From NCBI GenBank assembly GCA_024515975.1, contig JAMSKV010000003.1, positions 124,001-188,000 of the forward strand: 64,000 bases of DNA. Reading direction: 5' to 3'. Below are positions 2-40,227 of the stretch, in pieces. Under the pieces are notes generated by a model. It did not search any database. It was not told the origin of the DNA and saw nothing but the letters and a program-made list of their open reading frames with translations. The translations under genes and the position numbers were made by a program. This DNA is from Endosaccharibacter trunci. Lineage in GTDB: Bacteria; Pseudomonadota; Alphaproteobacteria; Acetobacterales; Acetobacteraceae. Each line of letters starts with the position of its first letter. Positions within the stretch are counted from its first letter, which is position 1.

Positions 2-346
2 GGTGGTGACCTGTTTGTCGGCCCAGGTGGTCGCTTGTCTCTGGTCGCAGGGAGTGAGGCGACGCAGCAACGTGTTTTGCGGCGGCTGCTGACGAGCAGG
101 GGATCGTATATCTGGCAGCCTGCATACGGTGCCGGTTTGCCGGGCCTGGTCGGCCAGGTCGCGTCGCAGCAGCAGGTTTCGGCGATCATCAAGACGCAGA
201 TGACGCTGGAGCCGTCAGTCCTATCGTCACCGGAGCCGGTGGTTCGCGTGACTGTGGGAACGCTCGGGGATATCAGCGCGGTGATTTCTTATTCCGAAGC
301 TGAGACCGGGTTGACGGAGACCGTTAGCCTGTCGACGGGAGTATAG
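2..346 (+). CDS. Phage baseplate protein, gp46/W-like (5' end outside window)
   Basis: Small baseplate protein of contractile-tailed phages (Mu gp46 / P2 W-like, T4 gp25 fold), expected in the baseplate wedge next to protein J. The reading frame is open to the window edge, and the residues before the first in-window start (GGDLFVGPGGR) match the usual pre-domain of this family, so the true start lies to the left. The diagnostic stretch is the QQRVLRRLLTSRGSY...YGAGLP region. It ends 5 bases before the J-like gene. Family assignment is by motif recall; a TTG at 35 could be read as a start but would cut the domain. Confidence 0.7.
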   Translation, partial: GGDLFVGPGGRLSLVAGSEATQQRVLRRLLTSRGSYIWQPAYGAGLPGLVGQVASQQQVSAIIKTQMTLEPSVLSSPEPVVRVTVGTLGDISAVISYSEAETGLTETVSLSTGV

Positions 347-351
347 GCAGT

Positions 352-1458
352 ATGCAGATCTCGTTGCAGAACTTCTCCAGCCTCGTCGCGAACATGTCGG
401 CTTCCGTGCAAGGCGCGTCGGCGACCGTGCTGGATGTCACTGTTGGTTCCGTCCTCAGGGCAATTCTCGAGGCTTCTGCTTCGGTAGGTCTCTGGTTGCA
501 GTATCTGATCTTGCAGGTGCTCTCCATGACGCGTCTGTCGTCCAGCACTGGTGCGGACGCTGACAGCTGGGTGAACGACTTCGGCATGAGCCGCCTCCCT
601 GCCACGGCAGCGACGGGTGTCGTGACGATGGCATCGTTCAATCCGTCTGCGCAGGCGGCCGTGATCAGCAACGGCATGACTGTTAGGCTGTCGGATGGCT
701 CGCAGACGTTTACTGTCGTGAATGGCCCCTATGTGCGCGCGATCGGCCAGGCTTCGGTTGACGTCACCGTTCAAGCTCAAACAGCGGGCGTCATCGGAAA
801 TGTCCAGGCAGGTGCTGTGAATATGCTTGGAACTGCGATTTCCGGCATTGATACGGTCTCGAATGCCGCTCCGTTTGCTGGCGGAGCTTCGGCGGAAACG
901 GATGCGGCTCTCCGTGCGCGATTCGTGACTTATATCAACACACGCGCTCAGGCGACGGAGCAGGCGATCGTGTATGCCGCAGCCTCTGTCGGGCCGACCA
1001 TCAGTGTGGCTATCCAGGAGAACGTAACGGCGACGGGAGCAGTCCTTCCGGGAAATGTGAATGTAGTTGTCGATGATGGCAGCGGCGCACCACCGGCTTC
1101 CGTGCTGACCGCGGTTGCGGCCGCGATAGATCCGATCCGGCCTGTTGGTACGACGATCACGGTCGTTGCCCCGTCGGTGATCGAAGTCAGTATGTCGGGA
1201 ATGATTTCCGTTGCAGCCGGCATTGATGCGGCTCCGGTCATCGCGACGGCGACGACGGCCTTGGAGAGTTTCGTCAACGGCCTATCTGTTGGTCAGCTAC
1301 TGCCTTATTCGCGGTTGATGGCGGTATTGTATGCAAGCTCGCCGCTGATCACGAACGTGACCGGTCTGACGGTAAATGGGTCGAGCGCGGATGTCGGGGG
1401 TATGTCGGGAACCGTCGTCAGGTGCCAATCGGTCTCATTGTCGGTTGCGCTCTCGTGA
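352..1458 (+). CDS. Phage baseplate J-like protein (gp47/JayE type)
   Basis: A 368-residue structural protein of the contractile tail baseplate. The N-terminal 80 residues resemble J proteins (a VGSVLRAILEA helix, then a DSWVNDFGMSRLPATAA segment). A long Ala/Val/Gly/Thr-rich beta domain follows, with the typical SNGMTVRLSDGSQTFTV strand near residues 105-125 and an ARFVTYINTRA motif near 190. It follows the W-like gene by 5 bases and overlaps the next tail gene, as in Mu-like and P2-like modules. AT-richer codon use than the genes beyond 9 kb supports a phage origin. Confidence 0.8.
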   Translation: MQISLQNFSSLVANMSASVQGASATVLDVTVGSVLRAILEASASVGLWLQYLILQVLSMTRLSSSTGADADSWVNDFGMSRLPATAATGVVTMASFNPSAQAAVISNGMTVRLSDGSQTFTVVNGPYVRAIGQASVDVTVQAQTAGVIGNVQAGAVNMLGTAISGIDTVSNAAPFAGGASAETDAALRARFVTYINTRAQATEQAIVYAAASVGPTISVAIQENVTATGAVLPGNVNVVVDDGSGAPPASVLTAVAAAIDPIRPVGTTITVVAPSVIEVSMSGMISVAAGIDAAPVIATATTALESFVNGLSVGQLLPYSRLMAVLYASSPLITNVTGLTVNGSSADVGGMSGTVVRCQSVSLSVALS

Positions 1459-2720
1459 GCGGCGCAACGACGCCGGCAATCGCCGTTGGAAGCGTCGCGG
1501 ACATGATAGCCCGGATGAGGGCGGTGTTGCCGTTTGCCTGGTTCCCATTGACGGAAGCAGGAAGTGCGAGCGAAACGCCGGTTCTCGACGCAGTGCTGTC
1601 CGGGATCGGATCAGCGTGGTCGTTCTGCTTCGGCCTGCTGAACTATGTGCAGTCGCAGACGCGATTGTCGACAGCCAACGGCACGTTTCTGGACCTGTTC
1701 GCCGCTGACTTCTTCGGCACGTCGATCACCAGGAAGGCTTTCGAGACGGATGACGCATTCCGTTCCAGGATTTCCGCAAGCCTGCTCCTACCACGGGCCA
1801 CACGGACGGCGCTGTCCGATACTCTTTTCCGTCTCATCGGTCTGCGGCCCTGGTTGTTCGAGCCGAGACGGGCTGCCGATACCGGCGCATATGGGGTGGC
1901 GGGATTGGGCTACGGCTCGAGCATGCCATTCCAGTATCTGGTCAGCCTCGACGCCAATGGTGGCGTGATCCGACGGGAGAGTGTTGCGACTTACGTGGAT
2001 ATTGTCGGGCAGCTCCAGATCGCCCCGCGTCACACTGCACGACCGGTGTATTCGAGCGGTTCCTGGGTGTCATTTCTGGTAGAGCCGAGCGGTTTCAATT
2101 TGTTAAAGGATAGTCTCGGATTTACTGGCTGGTCGGCGTCCTCCACCGGGGCGGTCGCCAGTTGGCTGGTCAACGCCAGTCCAGCGATTGCGCTCCTGTC
2201 GGGGTATCCCACGCTCGAATTGACGGTCGCTGGTGCTGGTTCCTTCCCCGGACCGTCAATCGAGACGTTCATCGGGGATCAGTCGGTGACGGCATCGTTG
2301 TGGATTTGGCTGCCATCCGGTCACACGCTGACGCAGTTACGCCTTCAATGCGGCGATGCCTCCGAAAATGCGCATGCTGATGCCAATCTGACGCTGGTGA
2401 ACCAGTGGCAACGTCTGATCACGACGATCGATGGTACTAGCGGCATAGCCAAAACAATTGCGGCGTGGCTGATCGGAACCAGCACCGGCCCGACGAGCAA
2501 CAAAATCGTCACGCAATGTTGGCAGGTCGAGCCGGGTACTGCCGCGACCAGCTTTATTCCGTCGTCGGGCCAGATCGGGGTTCGGGATCTCGATCGCGTG
2601 GTTGGTGACATCAGTAGCAACGACCCCTTCATTCTGGTCCGCGACGACATATTGGAGGCGGTTGGCCGTACCGCGCCGGCGGGGAGCGTTGCCTGGATGA
2701 ATATCCAACTCAGGCAGTGA
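1455..2720 (+). CDS. Phage tail/baseplate protein (I-like position) with beta-rich C-terminus
   Basis: About 421 residues from the GTG at 1455, which overlaps the J stop as GTGA; GTG 1422 and ATG 1503 are alternatives. Residues 20-140 hold a helical part (RAVLPFAWFP, FLDLFAADFFG, DDAFRSRI) seen in phage proteins located after J. From about residue 205 the sequence changes to a beta-rich domain (NLLKDSLGFTGWSASSTG, then VTASLWIWLPSGHT) that resembles carbohydrate-binding modules of the CBM4/9 type. Position suggests the protein joins the baseplate to the fibre. Function is inferred from position and partial similarity. Confidence 0.6.
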   Translation: MSGATTPAIAVGSVADMIARMRAVLPFAWFPLTEAGSASETPVLDAVLSGIGSAWSFCFGLLNYVQSQTRLSTANGTFLDLFAADFFGTSITRKAFETDDAFRSRISASLLLPRATRTALSDTLFRLIGLRPWLFEPRRAADTGAYGVAGLGYGSSMPFQYLVSLDANGGVIRRESVATYVDIVGQLQIAPRHTARPVYSSGSWVSFLVEPSGFNLLKDSLGFTGWSASSTGAVASWLVNASPAIALLSGYPTLELTVAGAGSFPGPSIETFIGDQSVTASLWIWLPSGHTLTQLRLQCGDASENAHADANLTLVNQWQRLITTIDGTSGIAKTIAAWLIGTSTGPTSNKIVTQCWQVEPGTAATSFIPSSGQIGVRDLDRVVGDISSNDPFILVRDDILEAVGRTAPAGSVAWMNIQLRQ

Positions 2721-2783
2721 ACCTGAGCAAGCCAGACTCGAAGAAAATCCTAAAGTCGACCTTAATAAGATTGGAGTCGTTGC

Positions 2784-4067
2784 TTGGACCGACAAATCGT
2801 GTATGCGGGCGCAATTCCGCTTGACACTGACCAGCTGTTGCAGAGCCGGTCCACTATGGTGGCTCTTGGGTATCTGGCTAAATTTGTTCTGGGCGACGGA
2901 CAGTCTTTCGCCGATGGGCTCAGTTGCACGCCGGCAGGTGCATTATCGGTCTCGGTAGCGCCGGGTAGCCTGACAAGTCCGGGTATCATAGATGCGCAAC
3001 CGTACGGATCGTTGCCTGTAGACGGCGATCCGTTGGTCAAGATCGGCATCAACACGTCGGCGATGATTTTGACGGTGCCTGGAAGCGGCCAGTTCGTCTT
3101 GTCCGCGCAGATGTTGGAGCAGCAGGCTGGAAGCGCTGCAACGCTCTACTACAACGCATCGAATCCTGCGCAGGAGCTTATCGGGCCTCAAGGCAACGGC
3201 CAGTTGCAGGCCAGCGTAGTTCAACAGCGGGTCGGTTTTCAGATTACGGCGGCGAATGCGGTTCCGAGCGGTGCAGTGCCGCTCTACGCATTGAATGTTC
3301 CGTCCGGGACGACCGTCATTACCCAGTCGATGATTGCTGTTGCTGCCGGTGCGCCATTTCTGGGCGTTAAGCTGCCCGGTGCGGCACCGCTTGTTTCTCC
3401 TGCCTTCCAGGGGGTGCCGACCGCGCCGACCGCCGTGCCGGGCGACTCATCCGCCGCCTTGGCGACGACGCAATTCGTGGCTGCTTCATGCGTCCGGAAC
3501 CGCGCTGCCTGGGGAACCGCCGGAAATTATAGCTGGACGTGTCCGACTGGCGTCGGCCGTATCCTCGCAAAGCTATGGGCCGCGGGTGGTAGCGGCGGTT
3601 CTGGCGGCGGCGGAAATGCGGGTGGCGGCGGCGGTGGCGGCGGCTATGTCGAGGTTCTCCTCAACGTGCAGGCCGGAACGGTCTACGCCGTGCAGGTCGG
3701 TTCGAGTACATCGGGCAGCGGGGCGAGTCAGTTCGATAGTCTGGCGACGGTCAGCATGGGAAGCGCGGGTGGGAACGGAAGCGGCTCTTCACCTGGTTCT
3801 GGCGGAAGTGCAGGTGTTTCTTCGGCGACGAATGCGAATATCGTGGGAGCTGCCGGCGTGACCAGCGGCGGACCGGGTTTCGCCATCGGTGGCACGGCTA
3901 TCGGCGGGCCGGGCGGATCCAGTTTCGGGGTGGCGGGCTGTGCGGCCGCCTTCGGGCGGACGATCGGCAATGATGGTGTCTGGCCTGGCGGCGGCGGCGG
4001 CGGCGGTTCGACCGGAGCGGGCGGGCGCGGCGCTGACGGACTCGTCGTGATCGAGTGGCTGGGCTGA
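2784..4067 (+). CDS. Phage tail fibre with glycine-rich C-terminal domain
   Basis: A 427-residue tail fibre or tip protein, probably the host-binding element. It starts at TTG 2784 with GGAG 7 bases upstream (GTG 2799 is possible). The N-terminal third (DRQIVYAGAIPLDTDQLLQ) is typical of tail-attachment regions. Middle residues include a collar-like APTAVPGDSSAALATTQFV segment. From about 245 the W-T-C-P-T-G-V-G-R-I-L-A-K-L-W-A-A-G-G start begins a glycine-rich domain with several runs of 5-7 Gly, common at fibre tips. It is the last forward gene of the tail module. Confidence 0.75.
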   Translation: MDRQIVYAGAIPLDTDQLLQSRSTMVALGYLAKFVLGDGQSFADGLSCTPAGALSVSVAPGSLTSPGIIDAQPYGSLPVDGDPLVKIGINTSAMILTVPGSGQFVLSAQMLEQQAGSAATLYYNASNPAQELIGPQGNGQLQASVVQQRVGFQITAANAVPSGAVPLYALNVPSGTTVITQSMIAVAAGAPFLGVKLPGAAPLVSPAFQGVPTAPTAVPGDSSAALATTQFVAASCVRNRAAWGTAGNYSWTCPTGVGRILAKLWAAGGSGGSGGGGNAGGGGGGGGYVEVLLNVQAGTVYAVQVGSSTSGSGASQFDSLATVSMGSAGGNGSGSSPGSGGSAGVSSATNANIVGAAGVTSGGPGFAIGGTAIGGPGGSSFGVAGCAAAFGRTIGNDGVWPGGGGGGGSTGAGGRGADGLVVIEWLG

Positions 4068-5468: not shown

Positions 5469-6012
5469 CGAGAAGTGACGGATCGTGCCCTCAACCCGAG
5501 GCTGGGCGGTTGGGGGCTGTCGCTGTTCGTCCCGGCCAGACGGTGCTGTTCCCGACGGTGTGTCCCATGGGGCGTTCCGCTCGATCCGACGCCAGGGATG
5601 GATGACGAAATCTCGTCGAAGCCTGCCGACGACAACGCCAGTTGCGCCATCTCCCCGACACCGAAATGGTCTTCTCTCCTCGTTCGGCTTGCCGGTGGCA
5701 GCGAGATCTGACGCACGATTTTGGTAGCTACCAGATCTTGGACGCCGCAATCTTTCCTACTGGTGTTTGGTGGTGCATGTCGCGTCCTGGCGTGTTCGCG
5801 GCTGATCCGGCAAGACACGGATTTCCGTACCTTGATGAAGCAGGGCCGGGCGCTTTCGATGTCCTGCCGCATCGTGGTATCGAGAGCCGGCTGCTCGTGT
5901 TCCCGGGCGAGACCCGTCGGGTTTTCAAACCGGCGAACGCGGCGTAGTGGCATCGGATCGTAGCAGCGTGGCGCGTCGCCCATATTGGGCGGGCGGCGGA
6001 GCGGAATGGCGG
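5469..6012. other. 544-base interval with no recognisable gene
   Basis: Several short frames (60-175 codons) are open here on both strands, but none has a convincing ribosome binding site, family motif or natural codon use. The reverse-strand frame 5459-5983 is the longest and begins with unmotivated Arg/Pro-rich sequence. No tRNA, strong hairpin or repeat was seen. It could be a decayed gene left between greB and gshB, or simply a long leader of gshB. Confidence 0.4.
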
Positions 6013-7014
6013 ATGACGGGCACTTTAAAGGTTGGGGTCCAAATGGATCCGATCCAGCATATCGACATCAAGGGCGACAGCACGTTTGCGCTGATGCTCG
6101 AAGCCCAGGCGAGGGGGCACGAGCTGTTTGTCTATGACGTTCGCAGCCTAAGCCTACGTGAGGGACGTAGTGCCGTCCGTTCGCCCCGGGCGGACCGGTT
6201 GACCGCCCGGATGCGACCTGTGCGCGTTCAGCGCGTCAGGGGCAACCATGCCGTGCTTGGCGACGAGCGGGTGGTGGATGTGTCGACGATGGACGTGGTC
6301 CTCATGCGCCAGGACCCGCCGTTCGACATGGCTTACATCACTGCCACCCATTTGCTGGAACATGTGCACGACCCGGTCGCGGGTGGGACGCTGGTCGTGA
6401 ATGATCCGCGCTCCGTGCGCGATGCGCCGGAAAAGCTTCTGGTTACGCATTTTCCTGACCTGATGCCCCCCACCTTGATCAGTTGGGATCTGCAGGCAAT
6501 CCGCGATTTTCGCGCCGAGCATCGGGATATCATCGTCAAACCGCTATTCGGTAATGGCGGCGCTGGCGTCTTCCGCCTCAAGCCGGACGACGAGAACCTG
6601 GCCTCGCTGCTGGAAATGTTTTTCTCGCAGTCCCGTGAGCCGTTGATGATACAGCGCTACGAACAGGCTGTCCGGCAGGGTGATAAGCGGATCATTCTCG
6701 CGGATGGGGAGCCGATCGGCGCCGTAAACCGTGTTCCGGCCGAGGGCGAGGCGCGGTCCAATATGCATGTCGGCGGCCAGCCGGCCCAGTCTACTCTTAC
6801 GCCTCGAGAAGTGGAGATTTGCCGGCGTATCGGCCCCATGCTGCGGGAGCGTGGCCTCATCTTCGTCGGAATCGACGTCATTGGCGATTGGTTGACCGAG
6901 ATCAACGTGACCTCGCCGACCGGGCTTCAGGAGATTGACCGTTTTGACGGCATCAATAGCGCAAGTTTGATCTGGACCCGGATTGAGCGGCGCCTGGCTG
7001 TCCGTGCGGGGTGA
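6013..7014 (+). CDS. gshB: Glutathione synthetase
   Basis: Adds glycine to gamma-glutamylcysteine using ATP, the last step of glutathione synthesis in the cytoplasm. The 333-residue length fits the family. The N-terminus after ATG 6013 ([20 protein letters not shown]) matches GshB proteins closely, which fixes the start although the frame is open from GTG 5947. ATP-grasp features: [18 protein letters not shown] near 175-195, and the metal-binding end [13 protein letters not shown] near 295-310. A GshB enzyme supplies the thiol used by the glutaredoxin at 53635. Confidence 0.93.
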
Positions 7015-7044
7015 TTCGTGATGGCGCCCGGCCTCCGTCGCCGG

Positions 7045-7215
7045 TCAGCCGTAGAGCCGCCAGAAGGGCTTCTTGCCTGATGGTGGCTTCTTCGGTCTTG
7101 TCATGTCAGGTCCGAATTTGTTGTCGAACCAGCTGAAAATCTCGCGTCGGAAATAAACCGTCACGATGCTGGTCCATAGAATGGCGCAGAGAATGACGAG
7201 GAGCGCGACGAGCAT
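7045..7215 (-). CDS. Small single-span membrane protein (56 residues)
   Basis: Short reverse gene: ATG at 7215 with AGGGA 8 bases upstream and a stop at 7045. Residues 1-20 (MLVALLVILCAILWTSIVTV) form one hydrophobic segment, followed by a basic, aromatic tail (YFRREIFSWFDNKFG) ending in a Lys/Pro-rich end and FWRLYG. This pattern fits a small inner-membrane protein with a cytoplasmic tail. It converges with gshB (30 bases apart). No family is recognised; reality of the gene rests on its start signal and sensible membrane pattern. Confidence 0.5.
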   Translation of the reverse strand: MLVALLVILCAILWTSIVTVYFRREIFSWFDNKFGPDMTRPKKPPSGKKPFWRLYG

Positions 7216-7412
7216 CGGGCGGTCCCTGAGGTTCGGTCGGTAGTGATATGGAAAACCGTCGAATCAGGCAACTGAATGCTGTTGCGCTGCCCGGTCGCCC
7301 TTGCTGACGGCGGCTCGGCAGGGCAGAGAGAGGCAACGAGCTTGTTGCTGAAGAGAGCCATGTCCAAGATGCGCATGCTGGTCGGTTCGACCGGCCAGAT
7401 CCGACACCCGGC

Positions 7413-8102
7413 ATGACCTCCTCCGGTCAGCTTGCGCCCAGCGGCATGCCGTCGAACGGTCCGCTCCCGAAATCCGCGCTCGATGCCGATGCGGTGCGTA
7501 CGGCCTATCAGCGCTGGGCTGGCGTCTATGATGCGGTGTTCGGAGGCGTCTCGGCCTTCGGACGCAAGCGCGCGGTTGCCGCGGTCAATCGACTGCCGGG
7601 AACGGCTGTGCTGGAAGTTGGCGTTGGAACCGGTCTCGCCCTGCCTCATTATAACGGCGACAAGCGGATCACCGGCATCGATTTGTCACGGGCGATGCTC
7701 GACCGGGCGCGGCAGCGCGTTCAGCGCAACGCCATGCCCCACGTCGCCGATCTGCTCGAGATGGATGCGGAAGAGACGAGCTTCGCCGACGATAGCTTCG
7801 ATATCGCCGTGGCGATGTTCGTGGCGTCGGTGGTGCCGAATCCACGGCGTTTGCTGGCCGAGCTGAAACGGGTGGTGAGGCCCGGCGGCAGTATCCTGTT
7901 CGTTAATCACTTCCTCGCGACCGGCGGGATCCGGCTAGCCGTCGAGCGCGGAATGGCACGGGCCTCGCATTCGTTGGGCTGGCATCCCGATTTTGCTATT
8001 GAATCGCTGCTGCCGGAGGTGGATTTAAGGCGCGCGGTCATTGAGTCCGTGCCACCTTTCGGCCTCTTCACGCTTGTGACCCTGACGAACGACGGGCCCT
8101 GA
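7413..8102 (+). CDS. Class I SAM methyltransferase, PmtA-like
   Basis: A 229-residue methyltransferase. After a 25-residue variable lead, AYQRWAGVYDAVFGGVSAFGRKRA is typical of the Rhodobacter-type phosphatidylethanolamine N-methyltransferase. SAM motif I is VLEVGVGTGLALPHY near 70-85, the acidic motif II is TGIDLSRAMLDRAR, and the post-motif LKRVVRPGGSILFVNH follows. If it is PmtA it makes phosphatidylcholine from phosphatidylethanolamine at the inner membrane, as is common in acetic acid bacteria. UbiE-like enzymes are the alternative, so substrate is uncertain. It lies 40 bases before the COX1-like gene. Confidence 0.65.
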   Translation: MTSSGQLAPSGMPSNGPLPKSALDADAVRTAYQRWAGVYDAVFGGVSAFGRKRAVAAVNRLPGTAVLEVGVGTGLALPHYNGDKRITGIDLSRAMLDRARQRVQRNAMPHVADLLEMDAEETSFADDSFDIAVAMFVASVVPNPRRLLAELKRVVRPGGSILFVNHFLATGGIRLAVERGMARASHSLGWHPDFAIESLLPEVDLRRAVIESVPPFGLFTLVTLTNDGP

Positions 8103-8142
8103 CGGGTCTCGTTGCTCTATCCGGGGAAGGGAATTCTCACTG

Positions 8143-9396
8143 ATGCAGCGTCGTCCAGATGCTGGTGCCGGGGTCGTTTCGACCACGATCGGCCTGTTGT
8201 TCCTGTCGATCGGTGTTTTGGCCGGAATCGTGGGTGCCCTGCTGTCCCTGATGCTGGAATGGCCGGGGCTGGCTCTTTCCGCGCCGATGATCAGAGGGGC
8301 GGCGGATGCTCATGTCCCGGTCCTGATCTTTTTCGCGGCGCTTCCTGCCACGCTGGGAGGACTGGGCGCCATCGCTGCGCCGTCTTCGGTGGGAGCGCGA
8401 GGAAGCGCCCTGCCGCGTTTGGAGTATGTCGGGCTCGTTCTTTTCGCGGCGTCGCTGCTTGCGCTTCTCGCAGCCATTTTTTCTCCCGGCGTCGCCGTGA
8501 TCGCCGTGTCCGTGAACTTGTTGGCGTTTTCAACGGTCCTGACGGGCGCTTCTCTTGTCGTCACCGTTCTTAACCGCAGCGCCTTGCCCTATCGGGCGGT
8601 TCCATTTGGCGGCTGGAGCTGGCTTATCGCCGGGGCCTTTGCGGTTTGCGCCGCGCCGGTCGCAGCCGCGTCTTTCACGATGCAGCTCTTCTCCGGCGTC
8701 ACGCCGAGGGCTGCGTGTGACACCTCCGCCTGGCCGGCTCTCGCCGTCATTCTCTGCGTCCTGCTGGGGGTGGTGACCGATCTGCTTCGTCCACGACTGA
8801 AAGGGCGTGTCATCGCCCTGCTGGCATCGTTGCTCGGCGCGGGCATGCTCGCTGTTTTCATGGGTTGGAGTGTTTCCGTGCTGGATGGGAACCGAACGAC
8901 TATGGTCGGTCCCGCCATCCATGCCTTGTTTCTTTTGATGATCGCTCCGTTCGTCGTGGCGTGGGTGCCGGGCCTCGGCGGCGTGGCCTCGATGACGCGA
9001 GAGGAGCGTCTTGCTGCGTTGTTCGCGGGCGGTATGGCCCTGTTGCTGCCCCTTGGTCTGACGCTCGAGGTGCTGGGTGTGGCCCGGCATGAGGCCATCT
9101 CTCTGGCCGTTGTGTTTGGCCTGTTCGCGGGGGTTTTCCGAGCCAAGTCGCGCGGGCCATGGCGTCTGATTGCCGTCATGCTTGTGGAGGCCCAATTCGG
9201 CCTGCTGCTCGCGGCCAGCCTCGCCGTGCTGCTTCCAGTCTCCCCGTTCCTGAAGAGCGTCGGTGCCGCCACGGCCGCCTTGTCGATCGGTGTCTTCGCC
9301 GCCGGTCTGCTGGCGGACAGTTTTGGAGCATTGCGCCGCTCGCTCGCCGCGAGCCGTCCCGCGGCCAGCAGCATGGCGGCAGGTCAGATCCCATGA
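8143..9396 (+). CDS. Degenerate cytochrome c oxidase subunit I-like membrane protein
   Basis: A 417-residue protein with about 12 hydrophobic segments and no recognisable alternative family. The N-terminus (TTIGLLFLSIGVLAGIVGAL) aligns by eye with the start of CtaD, and DAHVPVLIFFAALPATLGG (55-73) with its TAHGLIMIFFMVMPALIGG. Thus His57 corresponds to the first low-spin haem ligand. Near 316, RHEAISLAVVFGLFAGV aligns with HYVLSLGAVFAIFAGF, so His316 matches the second low-spin ligand. The CuB/Tyr motif (HPEVY) is replaced around 190-205 by a W-P-A-L segment, the HH pair of helix VII is lost, and the high-spin haem His is Ala314. AGGGAATTC precedes the ATG, and the stop overlaps ctaB (ATGA). 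Confidence 0.6.
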   Translation: MQRRPDAGAGVVSTTIGLLFLSIGVLAGIVGALLSLMLEWPGLALSAPMIRGAADAHVPVLIFFAALPATLGGLGAIAAPSSVGARGSALPRLEYVGLVLFAASLLALLAAIFSPGVAVIAVSVNLLAFSTVLTGASLVVTVLNRSALPYRAVPFGGWSWLIAGAFAVCAAPVAAASFTMQLFSGVTPRAACDTSAWPALAVILCVLLGVVTDLLRPRLKGRVIALLASLLGAGMLAVFMGWSVSVLDGNRTTMVGPAIHALFLLMIAPFVVAWVPGLGGVASMTREERLAALFAGGMALLLPLGLTLEVLGVARHEAISLAVVFGLFAGVFRAKSRGPWRLIAVMLVEAQFGLLLAASLAVLLPVSPFLKSVGAATAALSIGVFAAGLLADSFGALRRSLAASRPAASSMAAGQIP

Positions 9397-10310
9397 GCCA
9401 GACGACCCTGGGCGCATTGCCGCAGAGCGCCAGCACCGTTCGTGACTGGTTCGATCTGCTCAAGCCGCGGGTGATGACCCTGGTCGTATTCACCGGTGCG
9501 ATTGGGTTGTTTATCGCCCCTGCTCACGTGAACCCGCTGATTGGCGCCATCGTGATTCTATCCATCGCCATCGCCACCGGTGGGGCTGGGGCCATCAATA
9601 TGTGGTTCGATCGCGATATCGACGCGGTGATGCGGCGGACGGCGAGCCGTCCCGTGCCGGCTGGCCGTGTGGCGCCGGTCGATGCTCTGGCCTATGGCAT
9701 TGCGCTCAGCGTGCTGTCCGTCTGCCTCATTGGCCTCGCGACCAACTGGGTCGCCGCGGTCACGTTGGCGTTCTGCATTTTCTACTACGTCGTCATCTAC
9801 ACGATGTGGCTGAAGCGCTCGACGCCGCAGAACATCGTCATCGGCGGGGCGGCCGGAGCCTTCCCCCCGATCGTCGGTTGGGCGGCGGCGACCGGGCAGA
9901 TCGGATTGCTGCCGGTGCTGCTCTTCGCGATCGTCTTCTTCTGGACGCCGCCGCACTTCTGGTCGCTGTCGCTCTACGCCTGCAAGGATTACGGTGCGGC
10001 TGGGGTGCCGATGCTGCCGGTCGTGAAGGGTGCCCGGCATACGCGCTGGCAGATCCTGATCTACACGATCCTGCTGACCGCAGTGTCCCTGACGCCAGTC
10101 ATGATCGGATTGACCGGGCCGATCTATGCCGTCGCTGCGGCGCTTCTGGACGCCGGCTTCCTGGTCCTGGCCCTGCGCGTTCTGCGCGACAGACAGGATG
10201 CGACCGGGACCAGCCTGACTGGCGACAAGCCCGCCAAACAAGCGTTCCGCTATTCGCTGGCCTATCTCGCTGCCCTGTTCGGCGCCGTTTGCGTCGATCG
10301 GCTGTTGTGA
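9393..10310 (+). CDS. ctaB: Protohaem IX farnesyltransferase (haem O synthase)
   Basis: Integral inner-membrane prenyltransferase of the UbiA superfamily that attaches a farnesyl group to haem b, giving haem O. The 305-residue protein has the expected substrate-binding motif NMWFDRDIDAVMRRTASRP near residues 70-88 and the second Asp-rich loop near YACKDYGAAGVPML. About nine membrane spans are visible. The ATG overlaps the stop of the COX1-like gene, so the two are probably co-translated. In this organism haem O would feed a bo3-type quinol oxidase (the usual acetic-acid-bacterium oxidase) rather than an aa3 enzyme; that is inference. Confidence 0.92.
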   Translation: MSQTTLGALPQSASTVRDWFDLLKPRVMTLVVFTGAIGLFIAPAHVNPLIGAIVILSIAIATGGAGAINMWFDRDIDAVMRRTASRPVPAGRVAPVDALAYGIALSVLSVCLIGLATNWVAAVTLAFCIFYYVVIYTMWLKRSTPQNIVIGGAAGAFPPIVGWAAATGQIGLLPVLLFAIVFFWTPPHFWSLSLYACKDYGAAGVPMLPVVKGARHTRWQILIYTILLTAVSLTPVMIGLTGPIYAVAAALLDAGFLVLALRVLRDRQDATGTSLTGDKPAKQAFRYSLAYLAALFGAVCVDRLL

Positions 10311-10447
10311 TGGGAAAGCAAAAGCAGAGACCGAGCGTGCCGGTCGATCCGGTCCGCGCGAGAACCAGTCGAAGCATCGCTCTCGCGCTGGTTCTCGTCG
10401 GCTTCGCGGTGCTGCTCTACGCCATGACGGTGGTGAAGCTGCTCTGA
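10310..10447 (+). CDS. CoxF-like short membrane protein (45 residues)
   Basis: Small gene whose ATG overlaps the ctaB stop (TGATG). It has a basic, Pro-containing start (MGKQKQRPSVPVDPVRARTSRS) then one hydrophobic segment (IALALVLVGFAVLLYAMTVVKLL). In Rhodospirillales-type oxidase operons a protein of this size and pattern sits between ctaB and ctaG and is often called CoxF or cytochrome c oxidase assembly small protein. Here no ctaG follows: the next gene is the reverse Tim44-like gene, whose stop abuts this stop. Confidence 0.6.
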   Translation: MGKQKQRPSVPVDPVRARTSRSIALALVLVGFAVLLYAMTVVKLL

Positions 10448-11428
10448 TCAGCGTGCCTGCTGGATCGCCGACAGCAGCCAGCTTCCGCCACGCGCACGCA
10501 CGAACGTCCAGAGCTCAGTGACCGTCTGACGCTCGGTCGGGCTGCCATCGACGACGCGGCCGGTCAGATCCGTGGTGACGTCGATCATGGAATAGCGCAT
10601 GGCCACGGTCGCGAAGTCGCGGCCGTTTTCCGACCAGGCTTCCGACAGGTCACCATGCTCCATCCGAACGGCGCTGACCGCGTTGCGGAGGTTGCGGCTC
10701 GCCAGATCCGCAAGCTGCTCGGAAAAATAGCTGACCATTTCCGGTGTGGCGAAGCGTGAGAGCGAGCGAAGATCCTGCATGCTCCAGGCCTGCTGGATAT
10801 CAAGCAGCGCGCGCTCGAAGCTCTGATAGTCGGCATTGGTGATCTGGATGGCGCTACTGCCCCCGAACCCTCCAGTAGGGGCCCCCATCGGCGACGCCTG
10901 CACAACGTTCTGTCCGCGGCGGAAGAAACGCCGGAACAGCCAGCGACCGACGAAGAACAGGATCGCCAGCTGGATCAAGGTCCAGAAGATGTTGCCGAAT
11001 CCGGAGCGGTGCTCGCCGTAGCCGTCCGCATAGGCACCATGGTGGCCGAACAGCAGGCTGCCGATGCCGACGCCCAGCAGACCGCCTGCCAGACCGGTCG
11101 CGAACGGATGCGAGGGTCGTGCGGGCGCATAGCCGCCGCCGGCATAGGCGCCACCGCCATAGCTACCGGAATTTGGTGTCATGCTGCGGTTCATCGGTGC
11201 CGCGCCGTACGGGCTGGTGGTGGTGGCAGGCGGAGCGCTGTAGGTGCGGCTGCCGCGGCTGCCCAGCGACCCGCCAAGACCCGGCCGCGCCTCCGCTGCA
11301 CCCGGCATCAGGACGACCGGCGCCAGAACGCCGGCGGCTCCCAGCAGGGGCGGCAGAATAGCGGGCGCGCCGGACAGGAGCAGGGCCAGGGCGGCGGTGC
11401 GGCTGTGGCGAAGAACGGGTGTCGACAT
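10448..11428 (-). CDS. Tim44-like domain membrane protein
   Basis: A 326-residue protein. After the ATG at 11428, basic residues and a long hydrophobic Leu/Ala segment (about 9-43) look like a signal or first membrane span. A low-complexity Gly/Ser/Tyr/Pro region follows (to about 125), then a second span (IFWTLIQLAILFFVGRWLFRRFF). The C-terminal half (from YQSFERALLDIQQAWSMQDLRSL) is a Tim44-like domain, related to the mitochondrial motor-tether and to MlaC-type lipid-binding folds; its charged helix near 220-240 (SYFSEQLADLASR) fits. Its start lies one base after the pmbA stop. Confidence 0.75.
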   Translation of the reverse strand: MSTPVLRHSRTAALALLLSGAPAILPPLLGAAGVLAPVVLMPGAAEARPGLGGSLGSRGSRTYSAPPATTTSPYGAAPMNRSMTPNSGSYGGGAYAGGGYAPARPSHPFATGLAGGLLGVGIGSLLFGHHGAYADGYGEHRSGFGNIFWTLIQLAILFFVGRWLFRRFFRRGQNVVQASPMGAPTGGFGGSSAIQITNADYQSFERALLDIQQAWSMQDLRSLSRFATPEMVSYFSEQLADLASRNLRNAVSAVRMEHGDLSEAWSENGRDFATVAMRYSMIDVTTDLTGRVVDGSPTERQTVTELWTFVRARGGSWLLSAIQQAR

Positions 11429-11429
11429 A

Positions 11430-12767
11430 TCAGGCACCTGCGATAGTGAGCGTGTCGATGCGGATGGTCGGCGCATCGGTTCCGCGCTTGAAGACCAGAT
11501 CGTTCGCCGCCTGTAGCTCGGCGAACATCTCCATCAGATTGCCGGCAATGGTGAACTCGGCGATGGGTTCCGCAAGCGCGCCGTTGCGAATCATGTATCC
11601 GGCGGCGCCACGGCTGTAGTCGCCGGTCAGTCCGTTCACGGCGTTGCCCATCATCTCGTTCAGATAGACGCCCTCTGCGATGTCGGCGATCAGCGCCTCC
11701 GGTGTCACGGCGCCGCCGTTCAGGAACAGATTGGTTGGCGATGGCGAGGGCGGTGAGGACGGCCCGCGCCCGGCATGGCCTGTGCTGGGCTGGCCGAGCT
11801 GACGGCCGCTACGCCCGTCCAGGACCCAGCTGCGGAGTTCGCCGTTCTCCACCAGCATCAAGGGCGCAGTCGCCACACCCTCGCCGTCGAACGGCTTCGA
11901 TCGGCTGGCGCGGACCCGGGTCGGATCGTCCGTGACGTTGATGCCCGTCGGCAGGATGCGTGTTCCCATCCGCTCTTTCAGGAACGAGGTTCCACGCGCG
12001 ATGGCGGCGCCGTTGATGGCCGATGCCAGATGGCCAAGCAGGCTGTTCGAAACCCGTGGATCGAACACCACCGGCATGCGGCCCGTGCGCGGTTTGACGG
12101 GGTTCAGACGCGCGACCGCACGCGTGCCGGCGCTGCGTCCGATCATGGATGGATCGTCCAGATCGGACAGATGCACGCGCGAATCGTAGTCGTAGTCGCG
12201 CTGCATTCCGGTCCCGCTTCCGGCGAGAACGGTGGCCGATACGGAATGGCTGGTTCGGGCATAGTGGCCGGCGAAGCCGTTGGAATGGGCCAGCATGATA
12301 TCGCTGCGCCCATAGCCGGCGGAGCCGCCCTGCGAATTCGTGACGCCCGGCACTGCCAGGGCCGCCTCCTCAGCCGCGCCGGCGCGCTCGGTCAGCGCCG
12401 CCACGTCCGGCTCGGCGCCATCCACCAGATCGAGCGTGTTGGCGGTAAAGCGGCCTACAAGGCTACGGTCGCAGAGCCCGGCGAACCGATCCTCCGGCAC
12501 GACCCTCGCCATAGACACCGCCTGCTCGATCAGCCGGTTGAAGCCGGCCGGATCGGTGCTGGTGGTCGAAACGATCGCAGTTTTCGAGCCCACGAAGACA
12601 CGCAGTCCGACATCGTTGTGCTCCGAGCGCTCCAGTTCCTCGCTCTTGCCCTGGCGCACCTGCACGCCCAGCGACGTCCCGGAGACGAGAATGGCCTCCG
12701 CGGCATCCGCGCCGGCTTTGGTTGCGGCCGCGACAAGCTCCTCGATCAGGGAAAGCCGGTCGCTCAT
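11430..12767 (-). CDS. pmbA: TldD/PmbA family protein (PmbA/TldE)
   Basis: PmbA/TldE partners TldD in a protease that processes small modified peptides; PmbA itself lacks the metal motif. Start ATG 12767 (MSDRLSLIEELVAAATKAG) overlaps the M16 peptidase stop as ATGA; the frame is open further upstream but the longer form is not family-like. The 445-residue product has the family N-terminal domain with RQGKSEELERSEHNDVGLRVF near 40-60 and the C-terminal NLFLNGG...GVYLNEMMGNAVNG...GDYSRGAAGYMI. TldD was not seen in the window. It lies between the M16 and Tim44-like genes in one reverse operon. Confidence 0.88.
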   Translation of the reverse strand: MSDRLSLIEELVAAATKAGADAAEAILVSGTSLGVQVRQGKSEELERSEHNDVGLRVFVGSKTAIVSTTSTDPAGFNRLIEQAVSMARVVPEDRFAGLCDRSLVGRFTANTLDLVDGAEPDVAALTERAGAAEEAALAVPGVTNSQGGSAGYGRSDIMLAHSNGFAGHYARTSHSVSATVLAGSGTGMQRDYDYDSRVHLSDLDDPSMIGRSAGTRAVARLNPVKPRTGRMPVVFDPRVSNSLLGHLASAINGAAIARGTSFLKERMGTRILPTGINVTDDPTRVRASRSKPFDGEGVATAPLMLVENGELRSWVLDGRSGRQLGQPSTGHAGRGPSSPPSPSPTNLFLNGGAVTPEALIADIAEGVYLNEMMGNAVNGLTGDYSRGAAGYMIRNGALAEPIAEFTIAGNLMEMFAELQAANDLVFKRGTDAPTIRIDTLTIAGA

Positions 12768-40141: not shown

Positions 40142-40227
40142 GCGGTCGTGGCGGAATGGTAGACGCGCAAGCTTGAGGTGCTTGTGGGGGAAACCCCGTG
40201 GAAGTTCGAGTCTTCTCGACCGCACCA
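40142..40227 (+). tRNA. tRNA-Leu (GAG anticodon)
   Basis: An 86-base tRNA. The acceptor stem GCGGTCG pairs with CGACCGC, with discriminator A and an encoded CCA. The anticodon loop TTGAGGT gives anticodon GAG at 40175-40177, reading leucine CUC/CUU codons. The long variable arm (GGGGGAAACCCC region) is typical of type II leucine tRNAs, and the TTCGAGT of the T loop is present. Lies between divergent lipB and galU. Confidence 0.95.

Follow-up and report, generated by a model that had tools for sequence, protein, structure and literature searches.

A CtaD-derived protein that keeps the low-spin haem histidines beside ctaB in acetous Acetobacteraceae, and may serve CtaB as a one-haem partner

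Introduction

What keeps a gene for oxidase subunit I open when the residues of its oxygen-reducing centre are gone? The question is raised by an open reading frame (ORF) next to ctaB in the window, the whole 64,000-nucleotide stretch of Endosaccharibacter trunci DNA analysed here; we call its product dCtaD. In the passages available to us, PMC10715153 (Degli Esposti 2023, citing Matsutani 2014) reports that Acetobacter has, next to CtaB, a deranged COX1-like protein with none of the metal-binding residues. The accessible text of two other papers gives ctaB and ctaD as neighbouring locus tags in A. pasteurianus (PMC5158111) and the ctaB product of that species as functional, again citing Matsutani 2014 (PMC6915089). 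A preliminary description of the window, made from its letters alone, took the ORF for a cytochrome oxidase subunit I that had selectively lost its ligands apart from the low-spin haem pair, and suggested a new use of the COX1 fold. Here we ask which parts of that description hold, and what the protein might do.

Results

The ORF product is a CtaD/COX1 homologue

Searched alone, the window protein matches the TIGR02891 CtaD model with an E-value of 4e-10 (39 bits, far under the cut-off of 670.75 bits) and COX1 chains of the PDB with a best E-value of 8.8e-9, while the Pfam COX1 family (PF00115) gives no match to it. The same family matches seven of the nine members of the orthologue set A1 taken singly (best 2.1e-51), and in a profile-profile comparison the profile of these nine sequences aligns with six canonical CtaD sequences over 410 columns with a probability of 100 and an E-value of 3.4e-57. 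When the window protein is compared in this way by itself, the match covers the N-terminal half only (residues 15-184, probability 95.8, E 7.1e-9). The window protein was modelled with AlphaFold2 from a 5-row alignment (mean pLDDT 76.6, pTM 0.80). The model contains 12 long helices, with His57 inside helix 2 and His316 where helix 10 begins, as in COX1. The best 32 Foldseek matches of this model all come from heme-copper superfamily oxidase or NO reductase entries with TMq up to 0.72, and the best five are COX1 chains (TMq 0.69-0.72). The 417-residue product is thus a true CtaD/COX1 homologue; we regard the homology as certain because of the match between the orthologue profile and canonical CtaD together with the PF00115 matches to A1 members, and chance resemblance is rejected by the profile-profile match and Foldseek. 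The by-eye assignment to COX1, for which a profile search and a structure prediction had been recommended, is therefore borne out by TIGR02891, the PDB chains, the A1 members in Pfam, the profile-profile comparison and a structural similarity to COX1 (TM about 0.7).

The low-spin histidine pair is universal and the haem-copper ligands are lost

To read individual sites we used orthologues from 397 sampled genomes of the window's family, with the best four candidates per genome. Among the matches listed, 79 reach the end of the profile and were taken; those stopping near position 381 in longer frames were taken for canonical CtaD, without checking each, and left out. Another 17 orthologues, reached in additional genomes via their ctaB, brought the alignment to 96 rows (95 distinct) from 19 genera. 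Sites are numbered as in the canonical protein L012.

In the window protein the low-spin ligands His97 and His415 are present as His57 and His316. The three CuB histidines are replaced (His278 by Trp197, His327 by Val244 and His328 by Ser), as are the cross-linked tyrosine (Tyr282, now Ala201), the high-spin a3 ligand (His413, now Ala314) and Lys356, now Ala; of the residues that mark a catalytic CtaD, namely the three CuB histidines, the tyrosine and the high-spin histidine, none remains. The alignment confirms these calls, down to Ala314, as they stood in the preliminary description. Across the orthologues, both low-spin sites are His in 96 of 96, so that the pair is conserved where its absence would have spoken against the original proposal. 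His278, Tyr282 and Lys356 are kept in none of the 96, His413 in two, His328 in five and Glu280 in 54; His327 is kept in 46/96, and partly eroded relatives thus persist. Among 172 positions that are invariant in 16 canonical CtaD sequences, only His97, Trp224, Trp325 and His415 are invariant in all 96 rows as well. As judged from these residues, dCtaD is without an oxygen-reducing haem-copper centre.

Other contacts of the haem are gone. The loop with the haem-propionate arginine pair is missing in all 79 orthologues among the matches listed, and neither arginine is found in any of the 96 rows. This loss argues for caution in reading the protein as haem-binding from its sequence, and the conserved histidine pair may be structural instead. 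The arginine equivalent to canonical R73, which we take to be the contact of the haem A formyl group, is kept in 11/96.

The dCtaD ORF is coupled to ctaB in a conserved gene order

The features of the locus are collected in Table 1. The dCtaD ORF is intact over its 417 codons from ATG to TGA, and its stop overlaps the ctaB start in the sequence ATGA (9393-9396), as expected from the coupling to ctaB first noted by eye. The gap to the methyltransferase gene upstream is 40 bp. This ctaB is the only one above cut-off in the window's genome. The small ORF behind it has no match in the other tabulated loci by phmmer, and a promoter scan of 7000-10600 found none. A defence system was considered and rejected, PADLOC giving no match. 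Elsewhere in the window, the ORFs at its start (35-4067) resemble, by eye, phage tail or baseplate and tail-fibre genes, and the only tRNA detected by ARAGORN is a tRNA-Leu (gag) at 40142-40227.

Table 1. Position and annotation of the dCtaD-ctaB locus and its flanks in the window
Feature	Position	Strand	Remarks
Glutathione synthetase	5947..7014	+	Conserved upstream flank
Class I methyltransferase gene	7413..8102	+	Directly upstream of dCtaD
dCtaD	8143..9396	+	CtaD/COX1-derived membrane protein, 12 helices, 417 aa, lacking the haem-copper centre
His57 codon	8311..8313	+	CAT; predicted low-spin haem ligand, helix II (canonical H97, L012 numbering)
His316 codon	9088..9090	+	CAT; predicted low-spin haem ligand, helix X (canonical H415)
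ctaB	9393..10310	+	Haem O synthase; TIGR01473 324 bits, cut-off 210.3
45-codon ORF	10310..10447	+	One hydrophobic stretch; overlaps ctaB stop; may encode a small protein of the operon
Tim44-like domain protein	10448..11476	-	Conserved downstream flank; then TldD, M16 peptidase, ThrC

Of the 79 loci, all selected because they contain dCtaD, 61 had flanks long enough to tabulate and the remaining 18 were short-flanked. In 61 of 61, the genes for glutathione synthetase, the methyltransferase, dCtaD and CtaB are consecutive and co-oriented, and Tim44, TldD and M16 genes mostly stand behind ctaB. In the operon of a canonical relative (G019) the order is CoxB, CtaD, CtaB, CtaG, subunit III and Surf1. 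Since canonical ctaD likewise precedes ctaB, the link between dCtaD and ctaB may be inherited order. A specific link to the methyltransferase is weak for a similar reason: a methyltransferase of the same kind lies upstream in the canonical locus L123 too, so its place may be ancestral.

The pairing also extends to joint absence. In five genomes (G033, G159, G109, G113 and G251) the matches listed include neither dCtaD nor any other member of the CtaD family, and no ctaB reaches its cut-off. In 25 further genomes, ctaB is above cut-off in 21; it is accompanied by dCtaD in 12 and by canonical CtaD in four, it has nothing COX1-like within 1.5 kb in three (L169 of G005, L171 of G054 and L166 of G057), and in two (G011 and G013) the contig ends beside it, G035 being likewise cut off. 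In the other four genomes (G006, G038, G119 and G297), ctaB does not reach the cut-off, and the matches listed for the best four candidates per genome include neither dCtaD nor CtaD. The three genomes with ctaB and no COX1-like neighbour indicate that CtaB can do without dCtaD, and their loci are possible natural controls. E. coli CtaB is likewise not known to need such a partner. The dCtaD-ctaB pairing is thus usual, not absolute, and a role tied to CtaB, one of those originally suggested, fits the synteny and the co-loss but not the three genomes that have ctaB without dCtaD nearby.

dCtaD is under purifying selection and apparently arose once

By the Nei-Gojobori method, dN/dS of dCtaD over 92 non-independent pairs of 80-99% identity has a median of 0.15 and a maximum of 0.39, the latter from a pair whose frames over-extend; the median for the adjacent ctaB is 0.077. 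Frames from stop to stop span 404-751 codons in 79/79 orthologues among the matches listed, at a median pairwise identity of 27%. dCtaD is under purifying selection. The view that the ligands were lost selectively and not by random decay, for which orthologue dN/dS had been named as a check, agrees with a value of about 0.15 rather than a neutral one, with the open frames and with both low-spin histidines in 96/96.

In a tree of 67 rows, 45 deranged rows stand on one branch with an SH-aLRT of 99, which leads us to reject several independent erosions; dCtaD apparently has a single origin. The tree comes from a quick search, and its long branches make the inner placements unsure. The window dCtaD is the longest end branch (3.04). 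Its identity to four genus mates is 27-32%, compared with 63-77% for CtaB, indicating that the window copy evolved fast, and its codon-position GC resembles that of neighbouring genes. From the length of the branch, constraint may be relaxed in the window's lineage.

Two rows that had been left ungrouped join the deranged clade. L132 (1378-2808, genome G440), its sister, encodes a shorter CtaD with the high-spin histidine and the tyrosine and with Gln for one CuB histidine (WGQH), and is a possible intermediate. L131 (3812-5068, Paenirhodobacter enshiensis NZ_JFZB01000016.1) falls inside the clade on a long branch and encodes a COX1-like protein of 418 aa in which both low-spin histidines and one CuB histidine (GHPAIL) are present and the high-spin histidine is not; in place of ctaB, its neighbour is a gene for a c-type cytochrome (3224-3766), which it immediately follows. 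At an E-value of 1e-42, its own genome was the only one with a match to this protein among 149 genomes of the Paenirhodobacter family. A scan of genome contigs gave four loci, three from uncultured MAGs and one from Paenirhodobacter.

Oxidase and haem genes in genomes with dCtaD

None of the 15 dCtaD genomes tested has CtaG/Cox11, the factor that inserts CuB; the canonical G019 does have it. There are no CoxB or subunit III genes at the window locus, as judged by the lack of room between the listed genes. Haem A synthase is present in nine of the 15, including the window's genome, and absent in six. The window's genome has no CtaD above cut-off. Two further genes for subunit I are present in it: L031 exceeds the CyoB cut-off, and L032 has CyoB as its best model at 904 bits against a cut-off of 1020, so that a bo3-type CyoB is encoded elsewhere in the genome. 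Some dCtaD genomes do have a full CtaD elsewhere, above cut-off in G001 and G004 and just below it in G256, G046, G225 and others.

Discussion

From these results, dCtaD probably functions as a haem-binding protein rather than being a dead relic, because the low-spin pair is kept in every copy examined. We hold with moderate confidence that it is a selectively maintained CtaD derivative of acetous Acetobacteraceae that would hold one haem and act as a partner of CtaB, a reading drawn from sequence comparison; we go no higher because the propionate arginines are missing and some genomes have ctaB alone. Derived from subunit I of an aa3 oxidase, dCtaD has lost the haem-copper centre and kept the low-spin pair. 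On this reading, His57 and His316 would hold a single low-spin haem of type B or O; haem A is an unlikely ligand because six of 15 genomes are without haem A synthase and the R73 arginine is kept in only 11/96. As the membrane partner of the haem O synthase, dCtaD could stabilise a CtaB complex, and it could take up either haem B, ahead of farnesylation, or haem O, once farnesylation is complete, keeping the haem until it is passed to a bo3-type quinol oxidase. A former client of CtaB would in this way have turned into its haem-loaded scaffold or chaperone. Somewhat more tentatively, COX1 may here have become a one-haem cytochrome that serves CtaB and supplies the quinol oxidase replacing it, with no O2 or NO chemistry.

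Much of this evidence can be read in other ways. A haem-free structural scaffold, in which the two histidines serve for packing only, is unlikely, yet it is the alternative to which the missing propionate arginine loop and the two tryptophans, as invariant as the two histidines, give most room; the available passages of PMC10715153 likewise propose a CtaB-stabilising role. It does not readily explain why the two low-spin ligands are the only universal ones among six haem/CuB histidines, since packing alone would not pick them. The kept pair would suit a separate one-haem redox or sensing protein that does not act on CtaB, such as an electron relay for quinol or cytochrome c, and the diverged Paenirhodobacter relative behind a c-type cytochrome gene points the same way. 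We consider this improbable, as dCtaD adjoins ctaB in the tabulated acetous loci, both are missing from five genomes among the matches listed, and one haem offers no evident path across the membrane. Nor did the analysis bring up evidence for a quinol electron relay, one of the roles that the preliminary description had suggested.

The remaining explanation is a relic without function that decays by mutation and persists by chance, or because its translation is coupled to that of ctaB. Divergence is high (27% median identity), the overlap with ctaB at ATGA could keep the frame open, and Matsutani 2014 reportedly explained by an accumulation of mutations why ctaD lost its function. We find such a relic very improbable all the same: dN/dS has a median of 0.15, and its maximum of 0.39 comes from a pair with over-extended frames, all 79 frames among the matches listed are open over at least 404 codons, and coupling guards a frame, not two specific histidines across such divergence. 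A neutral relic is thus disfavoured by the substitution rates, the frames and the histidines together, and the one-haem partner of CtaB is the reading we prefer.

Set beside known proteins, dCtaD shares with subunit I of A-type cytochrome c oxidase (CtaD/COX1) the fold, the helix order, the downstream ctaB and the low-spin histidine pair; unlike it, dCtaD is without the CuB ligand set, the tyrosine, the high-spin histidine and the K-channel lysine, and the genes for CoxB, CtaG and subunit III are gone. CyoB, subunit I of the bo3 quinol oxidase, belongs to the same superfamily and is likely where haem O ends up in these cells, but is catalytic, intact and encoded elsewhere. Haem A synthase (CtaA) and Surf1 also sit in the membrane; according to the accessible text of PMC9145763, they have been proposed to receive haem or hand it on along the way from CtaB to subunit I, and a complex of CtaB with CtaA can form in other bacteria. 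These are different proteins from dCtaD, which would be the former client itself.

The deranged COX1-like protein of Acetobacter has the locus, the partner gene and the oxidase loss in common with dCtaD and by its description belongs to the same family. Of the new use of the COX1 fold first suggested, the gene itself is not new, as it had already been described beside CtaB; the passages of PMC10715153 available to us do not mention the kept low-spin pair. Nor did the parts seen of PMC4013037, PMC5112900 and PMC4596401 add anything on the histidines, and a literature search, largely outside subscription papers, gave no report of the kept pair and nothing on COX1-like proteins without a binuclear centre. 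What appears to be new is therefore not the gene, but the low-spin haem site present in all copies and the selection that acts on this site.

The published view, as far as these passages give it, is of a deranged remnant without any metal ligands. Its wording "all" is contradicted by the low-spin pair, which is His in 96/96, and this corrects the printed description and gives a definite and cheap prediction, a haem spectrum. If our reading is true, dCtaD would clearly exemplify how an enzyme subunit can be put to a new use once catalysis is lost, and would offer a handle on a poorly understood step, the exit of haem O from CtaB to an oxidase.
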